From contig JAFLYY010000001.1 of assembly GCA_029785825.1 (NCBI GenBank), positions 837,374 to 901,373 on the forward strand: 64,000 bases of DNA. The letters run 5' to 3'. Within the stretch, counting starts at the first letter, position 1; the number at the start of each line of letters is the position of its first letter. The translations under genes were made by a program, and so were the position numbers. Origin of the DNA: Nitrososphaerota archaeon (lineage in GTDB: Archaea; Thermoproteota; Nitrososphaeria; Nitrososphaerales; Gagatemarchaeaceae). Positions 25,928-35,275 of the stretch are shown here, piece by piece. The notes below the pieces were generated by a model. It was given only the letters and a program-made list of their open reading frames with translations, had not been told where the DNA came from and made no database searches.

Positions 25928-27700
25928 ATGACCGTCGGGGTGCGCGAGTATGTGGAAGCGGCCCTGGGGAAGCGCCCGCTGACGCTGCTGATCGAGGGCG
26001 CGAACCTCGTCAACGTGAACACCGGGGAGATCTACCCGGCTTCCATAGGTTCCTACGGGGACAGGATAGTCTACGTCGGCGCCGACGGGAAGGCGCCGCC
26101 TGCCGCGGAGGTCGTCAACGCCAGGGGGGCCTACGCCATCCCCGGCTTCATAGACACCCACCTGCACGTGGAGAGCACGATGCTGACCCCGGCGAGGTTC
26201 GCGGAAGCTGTCATCCCCCACGGGACGACCACGGCGGTCGCCGACCCCCACGAGATCGCCAACGTCCTCGGCAAGGAGGGGGTGAGGATGATGGTGGATA
26301 ACGCGAAGGGGCTCCCGATGAAGCTGTACTTCCTGGCGCCCACCTGCGTCCCCGAGTCCCCGGCGGCCACGTCGGGGGCCGAGATATCCCCCGCCGACAT
26401 CGAGGAGATGGTCTCCTGGGAAGGGGTCGCAGGCCTGGGAGAGGTGATGGACTTCGACGCCGTGCTCGCCATGACCCCCAAGATGGAGGAGATACTGGAG
26501 ATCGGTAGGAGGGGCGGGCTGTTCACCGACGGCCACAGCCCCCTGCTCTCCGGCCGGGAGCTTTCGGGTTACATGGCCGCCGGCCCCGACTCGGACCACG
26601 AGAACTTCACCGTGGAGTCGATGCTGGAGAAGCTCCGCGCCGGGATGTACGTGAAGCTCCGGCCGCCGTACGTGGCGAACACCAAGAGGTTCGTCGCCGC
26701 CCTGAAGGGGCTCCCCGCGCCCTGGAACGTCATCCTGGTCACGGACGACGTGATGCCCGACAACCTGGAGCGCCTTGGCCACCTGGACTACAGCTGCAGG
26801 TCGTTCATAGAGGCGGGGATGGACCCCATCGAGGCGATCAGGAGCTGCACGCTCAGGCCCGCGCAGCACGTCAGGATGCCCCATCTGGGAGCGCTGTCCC
26901 CGGGGAAGGCGGCCGACGTGGTCCTCGTCGACGACCTGAAGAAGCTCAGGGTCCAGGCCGTGGTCTCGGATGGCGCCCTGGTCGCGAAGGGAGGGAAGAT
27001 GCTGTCACACCGGACCCCCAGGCCCTTCGACAGGAGGGCCCTGGACACGATGAAGACGGGGACGCTCGGCCCCGACGACTTCGTGGTGAAGCCTCCGGTA
27101 GCGGACGGGGCGGTGACGGTCAACGCCATAGACTTCGGCCTGCTCCGTAGGCCCAAGGACCCCGCCGAGGCCTTCATGAAGTCGGTCCTCACCACCCTGA
27201 CCAGGGTCGAGGTGAGGGCGGAGGGGGGCGTCCTGAAGCTCGGCGACCTGGCGGCGGTGCTGGTCTTCGACAGGCACCGGGGCGTCAAGCGGCGCTCCTT
27301 CGGCTTCGCCAGGAACCTCATGAGGAGCGGCGCCATCGCCTCGTCGATAGCCCACGACGGGCACAACCTGGTCGTGATGGGGAAGGACCAGAGGGACATG
27401 CAGGCCGCCGCGGAGAGGGTCGCGAGGGGGAAGGGCGGGATCGCCGCAGTCGACTCGAGACCCCTCGCGTTCGTAGACCTCCCCGTGGCCGGGCTGATGT
27501 CGGAGGAGGGGCTGGGCCCGGTCTCGAAGAAGATGCGGGGGCTGAGGTCGGCGTTCGAGAAGATGGGGGTCATAGACCACCCCTACATGCCGGTGGTGGC
27601 GCTCCTGACGCTGTCCGTCATACCTCACGCGAGGATCACGGACAAGGGCATATACGACGTGGACGGCCGGCGGTTCGTGGAGCCGTTCGTCCCCCGGTGA
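25928..27700 (+). CDS. ade: Adenine deaminase (Ade family)
   Basis: 590 residues, the length typical of Ade. Metal-site and family motifs: GFIDTHLHVESTMLTP (residues 70-85), PHGTTTAVADPHE, TDGHSPLLSG, VTDDVMPD, and the C-terminal SSIAHDGHNLVVMG. It converts adenine to hypoxanthine, which the upstream xanthine-dehydrogenase-like enzyme could oxidise to xanthine. It sits 22 bases after the 2Fe-2S gene on the same strand. Confidence 0.92.
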   Translation: MTVGVREYVEAALGKRPLTLLIEGANLVNVNTGEIYPASIGSYGDRIVYVGADGKAPPAAEVVNARGAYAIPGFIDTHLHVESTMLTPARFAEAVIPHGTTTAVADPHEIANVLGKEGVRMMVDNAKGLPMKLYFLAPTCVPESPAATSGAEISPADIEEMVSWEGVAGLGEVMDFDAVLAMTPKMEEILEIGRRGGLFTDGHSPLLSGRELSGYMAAGPDSDHENFTVESMLEKLRAGMYVKLRPPYVANTKRFVAALKGLPAPWNVILVTDDVMPDNLERLGHLDYSCRSFIEAGMDPIEAIRSCTLRPAQHVRMPHLGALSPGKAADVVLVDDLKKLRVQAVVSDGALVAKGGKMLSHRTPRPFDRRALDTMKTGTLGPDDFVVKPPVADGAVTVNAIDFGLLRRPKDPAEAFMKSVLTTLTRVEVRAEGGVLKLGDLAAVLVFDRHRGVKRRSFGFARNLMRSGAIASSIAHDGHNLVVMGKDQRDMQAAAERVARGKGGIAAVDSRPLAFVDLPVAGLMSEEGLGPVSKKMRGLRSAFEKMGVIDHPYMPVVALLTLSVIPHARITDKGIYDVDGRRFVEPFVPR

Positions 27701-27736
27701 GAACCCTTAGATTGTGAAGGAGCGGGGGCCCCCGCC

Positions 27737-29110
27737 TTGGGTTCGGTGCTGATAGAAGGAGGGACCGTGGTGACCATGGACCGCGCCCGCAGGACGCTGG
27801 AGGACGCCTCCGTGCTCGTGGAGGACGGGAAGGTCGCGGCGGTGGGGCCGAGGGGGTCGGTCGGAGGGAAGGGGGCAGAGGAGAAGATAGACGCCCGGGG
27901 GATGGCGGTGATACCGGGCCTCGTGGACACGCACCTGCACCTGGCCCAGAGCCTGATCAGGGGGTACGCGGACGACCTGTCTCTGATCGGGTGGCTGAGG
28001 GAGCGGGTCTGGCCGATGCAGGGGAACTTCTCGAAGGAAGACGGGAGGGCGAGCGCCCGGCTCTCCCTGCTCGAGATGATGAAGAGCGGGACCACCTCCT
28101 TCGTCGGGGTGGACGTGGTCTCCAGGTACGGGTTCGAGGGGATAGCGGAGGAGGTCTCCGCGTCGGGGATGAGAGGCGCCCTGGCGAAGTCGATAATGGA
28201 CAGCGGGAGCTACGGCGGGGAGAAGAGCATAATGCACCCGGGGCTGGTCGAGGAAAAAGGGGAGTCCCTGGCGGAAGCGAAGGCCATGGCCGGGAGATGG
28301 AACGGGGCCAGGGACGGCCGGGTGAAGATCTGGCTCGCGCCCCGGTCCCTGGGAGGGTGCAGCCGCGGCCTCTACGAAGAGGTGGCCGAGCTCGCGGTCC
28401 GCCTGAAGACAGGGGTCACCATGCACCTGGGCGAGGTCAAGGAGGACGTCAGGTACGCCAAGGAGGCGTTCGGGATGACGCCGGTGGAGTTCGCGGAAGC
28501 CGTCGGCCTCGTCGGGCCCCACGTCCTCTTCGCGCACATGGTCTGGGCGGACGACAGGGAGATCGGCCGGCTGGCCGCTACGAAGACCAACGTGGCGCAC
28601 AACCCCTCGTCCAACCTCAAGCTGGCCTCGGGGATCCCGCGGGTCCCGGAGATGCTCGAGGCGGGGGTGAACGTCGGCCTCGGGTGCGACGGGGCGCCGT
28701 GCAACAACAGCTACGACATGGTCAGGGAGATGAAGCTCGCTGCCATCATCCAGAAGGCGAGGCTGCTCGACCCGACCGCCATGCCCGCACAGAGGGTGCT
28801 CGAGATGGCCACCGTCGGCGGGGCGAGGGCCATGGGGACCGAGAGGGACGTGGGCTCCATCGAGGTCGGGAAGAAAGCGGACCTGGTGCTGGTCGACCTC
28901 CGCAAGCCCCACCTCACCCCCCACCCGAACGTCGTCTCGAGCGTCGTCTACTCGGCGATGGGGAGCGACGTGGACACAGTGATGGTGGAGGGGAAGGTCA
29001 TAGTGAAGGGGGGGTCGAGCCTGACCCTCGACGAAAGCGCCGTGATCCGCGAGGCTAACGAGAGGGCCGCCGACCTGGCAGAGCGGAGCGGCATAAGACC
29101 AGGGACATAG
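27737..29110 (+). CDS. Amidohydrolase of the AtzA/TrzN/MtaD group (possible guanine or adenosyl deaminase)
   Basis: 457 residues. Motifs: GLVDTHLHLAQSLIRG (metal histidines), ADDLSLIGWL, MHLGE, AHMVW, NPSSNLKLASG and GCDGAPCNNSYDM. This group deaminates or dechlorinates aminated heterocycles: guanine, 8-oxoguanine, S-adenosylhomocysteine, methylthioadenosine, triazines. Following adenine deaminase, a guanine-type or adenosyl substrate is most likely. The HxGE glutamate and the late aspartate (CDG) are intact, so activity is expected. The TTG start has a weak TATA (CTTAGATT) about 30 bases upstream. Confidence 0.85.
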   Translation: MGSVLIEGGTVVTMDRARRTLEDASVLVEDGKVAAVGPRGSVGGKGAEEKIDARGMAVIPGLVDTHLHLAQSLIRGYADDLSLIGWLRERVWPMQGNFSKEDGRASARLSLLEMMKSGTTSFVGVDVVSRYGFEGIAEEVSASGMRGALAKSIMDSGSYGGEKSIMHPGLVEEKGESLAEAKAMAGRWNGARDGRVKIWLAPRSLGGCSRGLYEEVAELAVRLKTGVTMHLGEVKEDVRYAKEAFGMTPVEFAEAVGLVGPHVLFAHMVWADDREIGRLAATKTNVAHNPSSNLKLASGIPRVPEMLEAGVNVGLGCDGAPCNNSYDMVREMKLAAIIQKARLLDPTAMPAQRVLEMATVGGARAMGTERDVGSIEVGKKADLVLVDLRKPHLTPHPNVVSSVVYSAMGSDVDTVMVEGKVIVKGGSSLTLDESAVIREANERAADLAERSGIRPGT

Positions 29111-31954: not shown

Positions 31955-34459
31955 CTACGCGAGCTTCCTCTTGAGCAGGGCGGCCCTGTCGGTCCTCTCC
32001 CAGGTGAAGTCTGGGTCGTCCCGGCCGAAGTGGCCGTAGCATGCGGTCTTCCTGTAGATGGGCCTGAGGAGGTCGAGCTCCTTGATGATCATCCCCGGCC
32101 GCATGTCGAAGACAAGGCTCGCGGCGTCGGCTATCTTCTCGTCGTCGGCCTTCCCTGTCCCCAGGGTGTCGACCATGAAGGAGACGGGCTTGGCCACGCC
32201 TATGGCGTAGGCTATCTGCACCTGGCACTTGGCGGCGAGGCCCGCGGCCACCACGTTCTTCGCTATGTACCTGGCCATGTAGCTCCCGGAGCGGTCCACC
32301 TTGGTGGGGTCCTTGCCTGAGTTGTGGACGACGAAACCGTTGGCCGTGAAGGTCTGGGAGCCAGGGACGCTGATGTCGAACACGTGGTTTACGGACGGGG
32401 CGGTCAGGTCCACCCGCGAGTAGTAGTGTCCCATTTCGTAGAGGTATTCGAGGTATGCGAGGTCGTCATCTCCCCGCAGGAGGGCCCCATAGGCGTCGAG
32501 GAACTCCCTGAGTTTGGCGTAGGTGAGCTGCCTGGTGGCCTTCCCTCTTGACGCGCGCGTGAAGCGGCCGATCTTGACGGCATCCTCCCTCTGGACCTCC
32601 AGGGGGAGTTTCCTCCAGAGGCGGGTTATCCTCTCCCGCTGGTTCGGCACCGCCTGGACGTCGTCCTTCTTCGAGTAGTCGAGGCTGGCCGAAGTCTTGC
32701 GCTTGCTGGGGAGCCCGAAGCCGATCTCATTCTGGAAGACACGCACCGATTCTGCCCCCTTCACCCGAAGCCTGTAGGCGCGACGTCTGCTGGTGGCCTT
32801 GCGCCCGCCGATTTCGGACGCGTGCCCCTCGCGACCGACTGGCGCCACGGAAGAGACGATGCCGAAGCTCAGGAGCAGGGCCTGGACGTTCGAGATGAGG
32901 CTCCTCGAAGTCGAGCCGAACCGGATGTCGGCCGAAGCCTTGTGCCTTCCTGTCCTTCCGACTCTTCCGTCGGTGTCGAACAGACCCCTCAAGAAGGCGG
33001 CTACGATCTTCTTCGGGGCACCGAAGATCGCGGCGGGGACGTCCTTCTCCCACGCGGGGCTCTCGTCGACCCCCAGGTATCCGAGATAAGCTCGAAGCTC
33101 AACGCCTGCCATCTGCCACCAGCGGCCGAGAATCTTCCCCCTGTCGCCGAACAGGCGCAAGGAGAGATCCTGTACGACCCTTCTCGTCTCCGGGTCGGGG
33201 ACGCAGACTTCTATGGCGTCGTACCTCTTGCAGTAGCCGTCTCCGATGAGGAGCCCCATGAGGTAGGCGAAGTCTTCCGTAAGGGTCTTCGGCAGACTGA
33301 CGCTGTTGCGTCTCCTGGTTCCCTGCTTGTATGAATAGGCGAACTTGCTCAGGTCGACGTCGGGCCCGAAGATCCTGTTCCTTCTCTGGATAGCGACGAA
33401 GTCCCCTTTCTTCAGAGAGTCCAGCTTCTTCCATTCGTAGTTCCCTCTTTCGTCGATCACGCGGACGAGCTGGTGTTCTGACCCTTCCAGCTCATACCCG
33501 TCCTCCGTCGCCACCCGAACGGTGTTCATCACGCCGTTGTCGAACCACTCGTTCGCCAGCATGGGGTGGGTGTCGGTCTTCACGATCAGCGTAGAGTCGA
33601 CCTTTCCGCTGAGGTCTTCGAGCCGCGACAGCCCCCCGAGATGGTTGACCATCGCGTCTCCCGTGATGCAGTAACACCCTCCTCCGTGGGCGCCGAACCC
33701 CCCGTAGGTGTCCACTATGATCTTCCGCCCTGTCAGCCCCGAGTCCGCCAGGGTGCCGCCTATGACGAAGCGGCCCGTCCCGTTGACTATGAACTTCGTG
33801 TCCTTGTCGATCAGGTTCTTGGGGACCACCTGCTTCACCACCTTCTCGACCACGTCTTTCTTCACCTGCTCCTCGCCGACGCTCTCGTTGTGCTGCGCGG
33901 CGACGACCACGGCGTCCACCCGCTGGGGGCTCCCGTCGTCGTACTCCACCGTGACCTGGGACTTGCCGTCCGGCCTGAGGTAAGGCAGGATCCCCTGGTG
34001 CCTGGCGTCAGCCAGCCTCTTCACTATCCCGTGCGACAGCGTTATGGGGAGCGGCATCAGCTGTTCGGTCTCCCTGGTCGCGTATCCGAAGACCAGCCCC
34101 TGGTCCCCTGCCCCTATCTCCTCGATGGGCCTGTTTACCCCCATGGCTATGTCCGGGGACTGCTCCTCGATGGAGGTGAGCACCCCGCAGGTCTCCCAGT
34201 CGAGGCCGTCTCGGGCGTTGTTGAATCCGATGTCCTTGAGGACCCCCCGGACCACGTTCTTCACGTTGACGTAGGCCCTGGTGGTGACCTGGCCGGTGAC
34301 TATGACGGTCCCCTGCATGATGAGGGTCTCGGCGTCGACCCTCGCCTTCTTGTCCTGCCTCAAGATGTCGTCGAGGATCGAATCGGATATCTGGTCCGCC
34401 ACTTTGTCAGGGTGGCCTTCGGCAACGCTTTCGGAGGTGAACAGGTGATGCCTGGCCAT
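31955..34459 (-). CDS. metK: Bacterial-type S-adenosylmethionine synthetase with an in-frame intein
   Basis: The ATG at 34459 gives MARHHLFTSESVAEGHPDK, the exact family N-terminus; a 64-codon upstream extension is spurious. The precursor is 834 residues: N-extein 1-263, intein 264-713, C-extein 714-834. The joined exteins total 384 residues, the normal MetK size, and recreate GGGCYSGKDPTKVDRS in place of the usual GGGAFSGKDPTKVDRS at the active-site loop. Other motifs: GAGDQG, DGKSQVTVEY, GRFVIGG. It makes SAM from methionine and ATP. Most archaea use the unrelated-looking archaeal MAT, so this bacterial-type gene suggests transfer. A leaderless promoter and an upstream palindrome are listed separately. 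Confidence 0.95.
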   Translation of the reverse strand: MARHHLFTSESVAEGHPDKVADQISDSILDDILRQDKKARVDAETLIMQGTVIVTGQVTTRAYVNVKNVVRGVLKDIGFNNARDGLDWETCGVLTSIEEQSPDIAMGVNRPIEEIGAGDQGLVFGYATRETEQLMPLPITLSHGIVKRLADARHQGILPYLRPDGKSQVTVEYDDGSPQRVDAVVVAAQHNESVGEEQVKKDVVEKVVKQVVPKNLIDKDTKFIVNGTGRFVIGGTLADSGLTGRKIIVDTYGGFGAHGGGCYCITGDAMVNHLGGLSRLEDLSGKVDSTLIVKTDTHPMLANEWFDNGVMNTVRVATEDGYELEGSEHQLVRVIDERGNYEWKKLDSLKKGDFVAIQRRNRIFGPDVDLSKFAYSYKQGTRRRNSVSLPKTLTEDFAYLMGLLIGDGYCKRYDAIEVCVPDPETRRVVQDLSLRLFGDRGKILGRWWQMAGVELRAYLGYLGVDESPAWEKDVPAAIFGAPKKIVAAFLRGLFDTDGRVGRTGRHKASADIRFGSTSRSLISNVQALLLSFGIVSSVAPVGREGHASEIGGRKATSRRRAYRLRVKGAESVRVFQNEIGFGLPSKRKTSASLDYSKKDDVQAVPNQRERITRLWRKLPLEVQREDAVKIGRFTRASRGKATRQLTYAKLREFLDAYGALLRGDDDLAYLEYLYEMGHYYSRVDLTAPSVNHVFDISVPGSQTFTANGFVVHNSGKDPTKVDRSGSYMARYIAKNVVAAGLAAKCQVQIAYAIGVAKPVSFMVDTLGTGKADDEKIADAASLVFDMRPGMIIKELDLLRPIYRKTACYGHFGRDDPDFTWERTDRAALLKRKLA
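32321..33670 (-). other. Intein (450 residues) with LAGLIDADG homing endonuclease inside metK
   Basis: Begins at Cys264 (CITGDAMV, block A) and ends FVVHN (penultimate His712, Asn713), followed by Ser714 as +1 nucleophile. Block B is GSEHQLV; blocks F/G are VFDISVPGSQTFTANGFVVHN split around position 700. Both endonuclease motifs are present with their aspartates: LMGLLIGDGYC and LRGLFDTDGRVG. So both splicing and homing appear intact. It interrupts the nucleotide-binding loop, the usual kind of conserved insertion point. Cys262 two residues earlier is not chosen, because only Cys264 restores the exact MetK length. Confidence 0.92.
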
Positions 34460-34482
34460 GTGGGCAGGTCTCCGGCACGGCG

Positions 34483-34490
34483 TTAAATAT
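34483..34490 (-). promoter_or_regulatory. metK TATA box
   Basis: Minus-strand ATATTTAA, 24-31 bases before the ATG at 34459, so the message is leaderless and the start is confirmed. Confidence 0.55.
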
Positions 34491-34504: not shown

Positions 34505-34520
34505 TATTCCCATGTGAATA
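34505..34520. promoter_or_regulatory. Operator-like palindrome TATTC-N6-GAATA, metK copy
   Basis: TATTCCCATGTGAATA lies about 15 bases upstream of the metK TATA box. The same palindrome occurs at 34688-34703 before the divergent CBS regulator gene, sharing TTATTCCC and GAATA with the same 6-base spacer. Confidence 0.6.
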
Positions 34521-34663
34521 GGGCCCTCGCCCCCGCGACCGTTCAGGCTTGCTTGCTCAGTCCGCCGTCGCTCACTGTCCAGCCCCTTCGGAGACCGCCT
34601 GGGGTGGACCTGGTCGCGGATGGTGGTCGTCTTGACAGGCGTGGCAACCACGCCCTTCCAATC

Positions 34664-34672
34664 GGATAAATA
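34664..34672 (+). promoter_or_regulatory. TATA box of the XRE-CBS regulator gene
   Basis: GGATAAATA-type element, 31-39 bases before the ATG at 34703. The transcript start would fall inside the palindrome at 34688-34703. Confidence 0.45.
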
Positions 34673-34687
34673 GCATGTTGGCGCGGT

Positions 34688-34703
34688 TATTCCCGTAAGA
34701 ATA
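34688..34703. promoter_or_regulatory. Operator-like palindrome TATTC-N6-GAATA, regulator copy
   Basis: TATTCCCGTAAGAATA ends on the first base of the ATG of the regulator gene. A protein bound here would cover the transcription and translation start, which fits autorepression. Confidence 0.6.
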
Positions 34704-35275
34704 TGTCGTCAGCCCTGATAGAGCCGAAGCAGCTGAAGAAGGTCCGGAACCAGCTCGGATACACCCAGGTGAGGCTGGCCAGGGAGGCAGGGGTCAGCCA
34801 GTCGATAATCGCCAAGATAGAAGCGGGGTCGGTGGACCCGACCTACAGCACCCTGGCCGCCTTGTCGAGGGCGCTGAACTCAGTCACCCAAGCCAGGGTC
34901 AGGAAGGCGGGAGAGGTGATGTCTTCGCCGGTGGTGGGAGTGCAGGAGGACGCCAGGCTGAGGGAGTGCGCCGCGCTGATGAAGCGGGAAGGGTTCTCCC
35001 AGGTCCCCGTGTTCTCGGGGGAGCGCATCGTCGGGACCATCACCGACAGCCACGTCATGGACCTGCTGGCGGCGGCCCAGGACCCCAAGAAGGTCCTCGA
35101 CGAGAAGGTCAAGGACCACGTCCAGCCTGCCTTCGCGGTGGTGGGGAAGGACACGCCGGTGGACGCGCTCTTCTCGCTATTCAAGTACCTCCCGGCGGTC
35201 CTGGTGGAGTCAGGGGAGAAGGTGCAAGGCATAGTGACGAAGATAGACCTGATGGCCGCTGCCGGGTCGGAGTAA
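34703..35275 (+). CDS. XRE-type HTH regulator with paired CBS domains
   Basis: 190 residues. Residues about 8-62 form an HTH_3 domain (LGYTQVRLAREAGVSQS). Two CBS domains follow (about 70-123 and 130-188; VMSSPVVGVQEDARL and AFAVVGKDTPVDALF). CBS pairs bind adenosyl ligands such as AMP, ATP or SAM; the archaeal CBS protein MJ0100 binds SAM and methylthioadenosine. It is divergent from metK, and both genes carry the same palindrome. A SAM-sensing repressor of itself and regulator of metK is a good hypothesis. The ATG is supported by the TATA spacing. Confidence 0.85.
   Translation: MSSALIEPKQLKKVRNQLGYTQVRLAREAGVSQSIIAKIEAGSVDPTYSTLAALSRALNSVTQARVRKAGEVMSSPVVGVQEDARLRECAALMKREGFSQVPVFSGERIVGTITDSHVMDLLAAAQDPKKVLDEKVKDHVQPAFAVVGKDTPVDALFSLFKYLPAVLVESGEKVQGIVTKIDLMAAAGSE

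Follow-up and report, generated by a model that had tools for sequence, protein, structure and literature searches.

A palindrome common to an archaeal HTH-CBS regulator and genes of methionine and SAM synthesis, as a candidate operator

Introduction

Two matching palindromes lie between the SAM synthetase gene metK and a divergent regulator gene in a Nitrososphaerota archaeon, and they raise the question of which protein reads them and which pathway it serves. The window analyzed here is a stretch of 64,000 nucleotides from contig JAFLYY010000001.1. According to the original prediction, made from this DNA alone, the regulator represses itself and tunes metK according to the SAM level.

In the open-access literature, MetJ, MetR, SahR, SamR and SAM riboswitches are described in bacteria, and an archaeal equivalent was not found there. 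The MetJ, SamR and SahR regulons of Proteobacteria resemble the archaeal system in their palindromic operators and in their control of metK, metE, metX and related genes, and the SamR gene adjoins metH, so that there too a regulator gene stands beside its targets (PMC4239095). The archaeal system differs from all three in its XRE HTH plus CBS pair, its archaeal promoters and its TATA-phased operator. XRE-CBS proteins with the same domain architecture as the regulator (Pfam HTH_3 plus CBS) are known, and no regulon described for this group was found in open-access articles. The same holds for any earlier description of this regulator/palindrome regulon.

The regulator, metK and the two palindromes

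The regulator is a protein of 190 aa encoded at 34703-35275 on the forward strand. Its N-terminal residues 11-59 form an XRE-type HTH (PF01381, HTH_3, 2.9e-14, above cut-off), and residues 69-185 form a C-terminal tandem CBS pair, matched by PF00571 in two stretches (7e-18) and by CBS pairs in a Foldseek search with the AlphaFold model. This model (pLDDT 86.8, pTM 0.56) is confident within domains. Among curated NCBIfam families, none passed its cut-off with this protein. An anti-phage or toxin-antitoxin reading was rejected, the matches being just generic HTH or CBS hits below the NCBIfam curated cut-offs. The regulator falls outside the MetJ family, with HTH_3 plus CBS in place of the ribbon-helix-helix fold and no MetJ match. 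The nearest contigs in the public collection carry the labels archaeon, Nitrososphaerota or Thaumarchaeota.

On the reverse strand, metK (31955-34459) encodes a bacterial-type methionine adenosyltransferase (TIGR01034, 3.9e-160; PF00438, PF02772 and PF02773) that is split by an intein with a LAGLIDADG domain at about residues 262-714 (32318-33676, reverse strand; PF14528, 1.7e-17; TIGR01443 at residues 692-714). These domain matches confirm both gene identities given in the original prediction, metK on one side of the palindromes and a divergent CBS-HTH regulator on the other. The intein sits just after GFGAHGGG, and in three relatives (L035, L037 and L039) and a Micrarchaeota contig (L067) metK is split near the same point. 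An adenine deaminase and an amidohydrolase are encoded near metK (25928-29110) and possibly serve the salvage of adenosyl by-products.

Both palindromes, predicted operators without strand, are present with the same format and equal spacer, as had been claimed. The metK-proximal copy, TATTCCCATGTGAATA, occupies 34505-34520, upstream of the metK TATA box at a distance of 15 bp and at -61 from the metK ATG. The regulator-proximal copy, TATTCCCGTAAGAATA, occupies 34688-34703, is kept in orthologs, and covers the predicted transcription start and the A of the regulator ATG, a one-base overlap. The strict pattern TATTC-N6-GAATA matches twice in the window as against 0 expected from 100 shuffles. 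A scan of the whole genome (1,967,417 bases) found the same two matches in the metK/regulator intergenic region and no further strict site, and a reversed-pattern control had 0 matches over the same bases. With one mismatch allowed, the genome holds 25 matches as against 11 for the control pattern, an excess of about twofold; the strict palindrome is therefore the informative form. The extended operator consensus is TATTCC-N4-GGAATA.

A structured RNA was considered as another account of the intergenic region. The window has no Rfam match at gathering thresholds, to a SAM riboswitch or otherwise, and the predicted transcripts are nearly leaderless.

Conservation of the palindrome beside methionine and SAM genes

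A survey of 46 genomes of the family, with the regulator called at E<=1e-20, found it in 29, including all 13 that have bacterial-type metK. The two genes are divergent neighbors within about 350 bp in nine of these 13; one family genome (G016) has the order regulator, metE-like, metK, metE. Most family orthologs have the palindrome, allowing one mismatch, no more than 35 bp ahead of the regulator start. Further afield, a contig search located Bathyarchaeota-labelled orthologs with two tandem palindromes and divergent metE genes, as well as Woesearchaeota, Nanoarchaeota and Micrarchaeota examples (among L060, L062, L063, L065 and L067) that combine the palindrome with divergent bacterial-type metK. 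The regulators of these DPANN lineages are 29-37% identical to that of the window. The original prediction had staked itself on the palindrome persisting at orthologous loci, and it is indeed kept in Nitrososphaerota, Bathyarchaeota and DPANN.

A larger sample of the phylum comprised 398 genomes, of which 105 contain a homolog of the regulator (E<=1e-25); 100 of these loci were read with their flanks. Divergent neighbors here include metY-metX-metW, a metE pair, HcyBio/PF01837 with a ferredoxin-like partner, and an archaeal-type MAT (PF01941, 1e-166), which belongs to a SAM synthetase family unrelated to bacterial-type metK. Three loci (L186, L270 and L280) have putative HcyS-type targets. In G036, a genome from the same family as the window, the genes divergent from the regulator are asd and aspartokinase, and metY-metX-metW is preceded by a second palindrome. 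A scan of related genomes for the palindrome near methionine genes, proposed along with the original prediction, thus located it beside metK, MAT, metE, metY-metX-metW, HcyS-type and asd-aspartokinase genes. The site also stands at unlinked metY promoters, at -60 to -62 in six of seven genomes with 0 to 2 mismatches (the metY of G036 is near the regulator), and at -62 to -64 before the metK of three relatives (L108, L112 and L113). An operator common to several methionine/SAM genes, as in a methionine/SAM regulon, is accordingly found in related genomes. In the window's own genome, the unlinked metE has no site and metY no close palindrome match. Three family members (G021, G023 and G038) have metK away from the regulator and without an exact site, and some palindrome-bearing orthologs lack an adjoining methionine gene (e.g., L016, L021-L025, L195 and L285).

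A few palindromes have other neighbors. One TATTC-type copy (L124:2615, genome G020) precedes a gene for the S component of an ECF transporter (PF07155), a possible target for methionine or vitamin uptake. Another (L120:2003, genome G014) is near a ThiS-ThiF-rhodanese fusion gene, and a third (L202) is upstream of a PALP enzyme with MoaD/ThiF-like neighbors; the neighbors at L120 and L202 could belong to a sulfur-transfer route to homocysteine.

The association can be counted in several ways. Palindrome (at most one mismatch) and methionine/SAM neighbor occur together at 25 loci, the palindrome alone at 6, the neighbor alone at 9 and neither at 56, and this co-occurrence (25:6 vs 9:56) has a Fisher p of 2e-10 uncorrected for relatedness. 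Since the palindrome is inherited within one clade, such p-values overstate the case; a tree-aware pair test typically leaves 2 concordant and 0 discordant pairs and is underpowered. More persuasive are two other observations. The neighbor gene has switched at least 10 times among methionine/SAM genes on the tree, and exact sites number 25 in 24,817 positions upstream of regulators as against 3 in the 586,971 remaining positions of these loci, a density about 200-fold higher. A chance palindrome is rejected on the shuffles, the whole-genome count and this density.

An operator variant that tracks the recognition helix

Conservation beside a regulator gene leaves the question of which protein is the reader. 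On a FastTree phylogeny with long branches, 77 of the 78 loci with a palindrome fall on the same side of a midpoint split of the regulators. The sister clade holds about 64 related HTH-CBS regulators (e.g., L188-L193 and L070-L076) without the TATTC palindrome, apart from L242, and without a recognized methionine neighbor, apart from L212. On the palindrome side, a sub-clade mostly beside archaeal MAT (L227, L233, L244, L246, L250, L253 and L258) also lacks the TATTC form and has ATAAC-N5-GTTAT at the start codon instead, exact in six of seven loci as against 0 of 155 others. All members of this sub-clade have A34-H35 in the recognition helix, in contrast to S34 with mostly I or L at position 35 elsewhere; the window regulator has S34-I35. 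The operator variant tracks the recognition helix, which ties the palindrome to this HTH-CBS protein.

It is very improbable, given this covariation, that some other protein binds the palindromes, that they represent an unrelated promoter element, or that they arose by chance; the roughly 200-fold density upstream of the regulator gene and the empty Rfam result speak against such readings as well. Taken together, the conservation, the methionine neighbors, the unlinked metY sites and the variant palindrome with its different recognition helix provide good support, by comparison of sequences, for the palindrome being the regulator's operator, common to the regulator and a SAM/methionine gene, in a circuit that would serve methionine/SAM metabolism. 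We infer that the regulator physically binds the palindromes.

Promoter geometry and the direction of control

The position of each site relative to its promoter bears on what a bound regulator would do. The predicted metK TATA box (tatttaa, 34483-34489, reverse strand) is 15 bp from the palindrome and coincides with an A/T peak across 77 loci. The predicted regulator TATA box (ataaata, 34666-34672, forward strand) is 15 bp before the second palindrome, and the same spacing is seen in L006, L008 and L011. Promoters of metK, metY, metE and asd, and most of those of MAT and HcyS, have a TATA box that begins some 15-16 bp beyond the edge of the palindrome. Toward the met gene, positions +15 to +21 are 84-93% A/T over the 77 loci and 79-96% in 29 G+C-rich loci; over the same 77 loci, the regulator side of the palindrome has no matching A/T peak. 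The usual distance from TATA box to transcription start is about 25 bp. This distance places the metK start near 34460, with its site centered around -52, and the regulator start inside its own palindrome.

In archaea, a site upstream of BRE/TATA belongs to an activator, and one at or downstream of +1 to a repressor (PMC4158304; PMC6737238). The second palindrome, over the regulator start, has the position of a repressor site, which makes autorepression the natural reading. The metK-side palindrome, immediately upstream of BRE/TATA at a fixed spacing of 15 bp, has the position of a BRE-proximal activator site, which favors activation over repression for metK. Regulators of the TrmBL1/Tgr and TK0271 types likewise activate from upstream of BRE/TATA and repress at +1 (PMC4158304; PMC6737238), and differ in their DNA-binding and sensor domains and in regulons of sugar or aromatic amino acid metabolism. 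For the self-repressing, metK-tuning regulator of the original prediction, the operator common to both genes is well supported and the site position backs autorepression; for metK, activation is the likelier sign of control.

A regulator dimer on the palindrome over its own transcription start would repress the regulator gene. Another copy, bound directly upstream of the metK BRE/TATA in fixed phase 15 bp from the TATA box, would act on initiation, most likely by helping TBP/TFB to bind.

A corepression of the MetJ kind is a rather unlikely alternative, in which SAM-bound regulator on both palindromes would turn down metK and its own gene under abundant SAM, the metK site hindering TFB or polymerase. 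The autorepressor geometry at the regulator agrees with it, as do the bacterial analogs MetJ and the proposed SamR, which control metK and methionine genes (PMC4239095, where SamR has no assigned effector). However, the met-side site stays upstream of BRE with a constant spacing of 15 bp, both across very distant lineages and at unlinked metY promoters, and contact with the basal machinery fits such spacing better than simple occlusion does.

In close relatives whose two genes are 60-130 bp apart, a single palindrome and a single A/T box appear to be used in both directions. In the window, a probable decayed metE-like remnant lies between the two palindromes (34577-34684, reverse strand; tblastn with the L039 MetE-like protein, 42% over 36 aa, E 0.018). 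The same search found a clear remnant of 77 aa at this place in L008 (64%, 2e-26). What has decayed is the 5' portion of a metE-like gene, of which L039 has an intact copy. This suggests that the two-operator layout of the window arose through loss of a metE-like gene. It is possible, though less likely than not, that a widespread archaeal SAM-sensing regulator acts as a direction switch on a promoter common to both genes. A single dimer, bound to a lone palindrome 15 bp from a two-way TATA box, would block its own start and drive the methionine/SAM gene; the module would then be doubled in the window's genome, with a copy for each promoter.

The ligand of the CBS pair

The motif in the second CBS domain (CBS2) of the regulator reads G176-I-V-T-K-I-D182, with G176 and D182 invariant. 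In human cystathionine beta-synthase, Asp538 of the GVVTAID motif binds the SAM ribose (PMC4276868). The regulator motif matches this GVVTAID, and the human FDQ aligns by eye with FSQ of the regulator at residues 98-100 (PMC4276868); Q100 is invariant in the sister clade too and so is not diagnostic. The CBS2 motif also fits AMP/ATP binders. Foldseek neighbors of the AlphaFold model are mostly AMP/ATP binders, with AcuB, ST2348 and DarB nearest and the domain of SAM-bound human CBS ranking 32nd. For the CBS pair of MJ0100, binding of both SAM and MTA has been reported (Lucas et al. 2010, as cited in PMC4276868). MJ0100/HcyS (PF01837 plus CBS pair) resembles the regulator in placing a CBS pair in methionine metabolism, and differs in being an enzyme family whose HcyS-type genes are putative targets here.

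A sensor of energy or by-products is an alternative, in which the CBS pair would respond to AMP/ATP, MTA or some other adenosyl compound in place of SAM and couple the methionine genes to that signal. The nearest folds, which bind AMP, ADP, ATP or c-di-AMP, fit such a sensor, and GxxTxxD is a generic adenosyl-ligand motif. Against it, the methionine/SAM pathway is the constant among the neighbors, two unrelated SAM synthetase families included, and this reading is unlikely. SAM is plausibly the likeliest ligand by pathway context rather than structure, with AMP, ATP or MTA possible.

An adenosyl ligand, most likely SAM, would be taken up by the CBS pair and set the DNA affinity or activity of the regulator, by which SAM synthesis would be matched to the SAM level. 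The preferred model as a whole, a self-repressing HTH-CBS regulator that acts on metK from upstream of BRE under adenosyl-ligand control, is thus put forward as probable.

Significance

Control of methionine/SAM synthesis in archaea appears largely undescribed. The present analysis offers a concrete candidate protein, a predicted operator and a list of putative targets that span lineages of Nitrososphaerota, Bathyarchaeota and DPANN. What appears to be one regulator family stands over two SAM synthetase families that are unrelated to each other, and the fixed operator-TATA spacing may provide a compact model of archaeal activation and repression.
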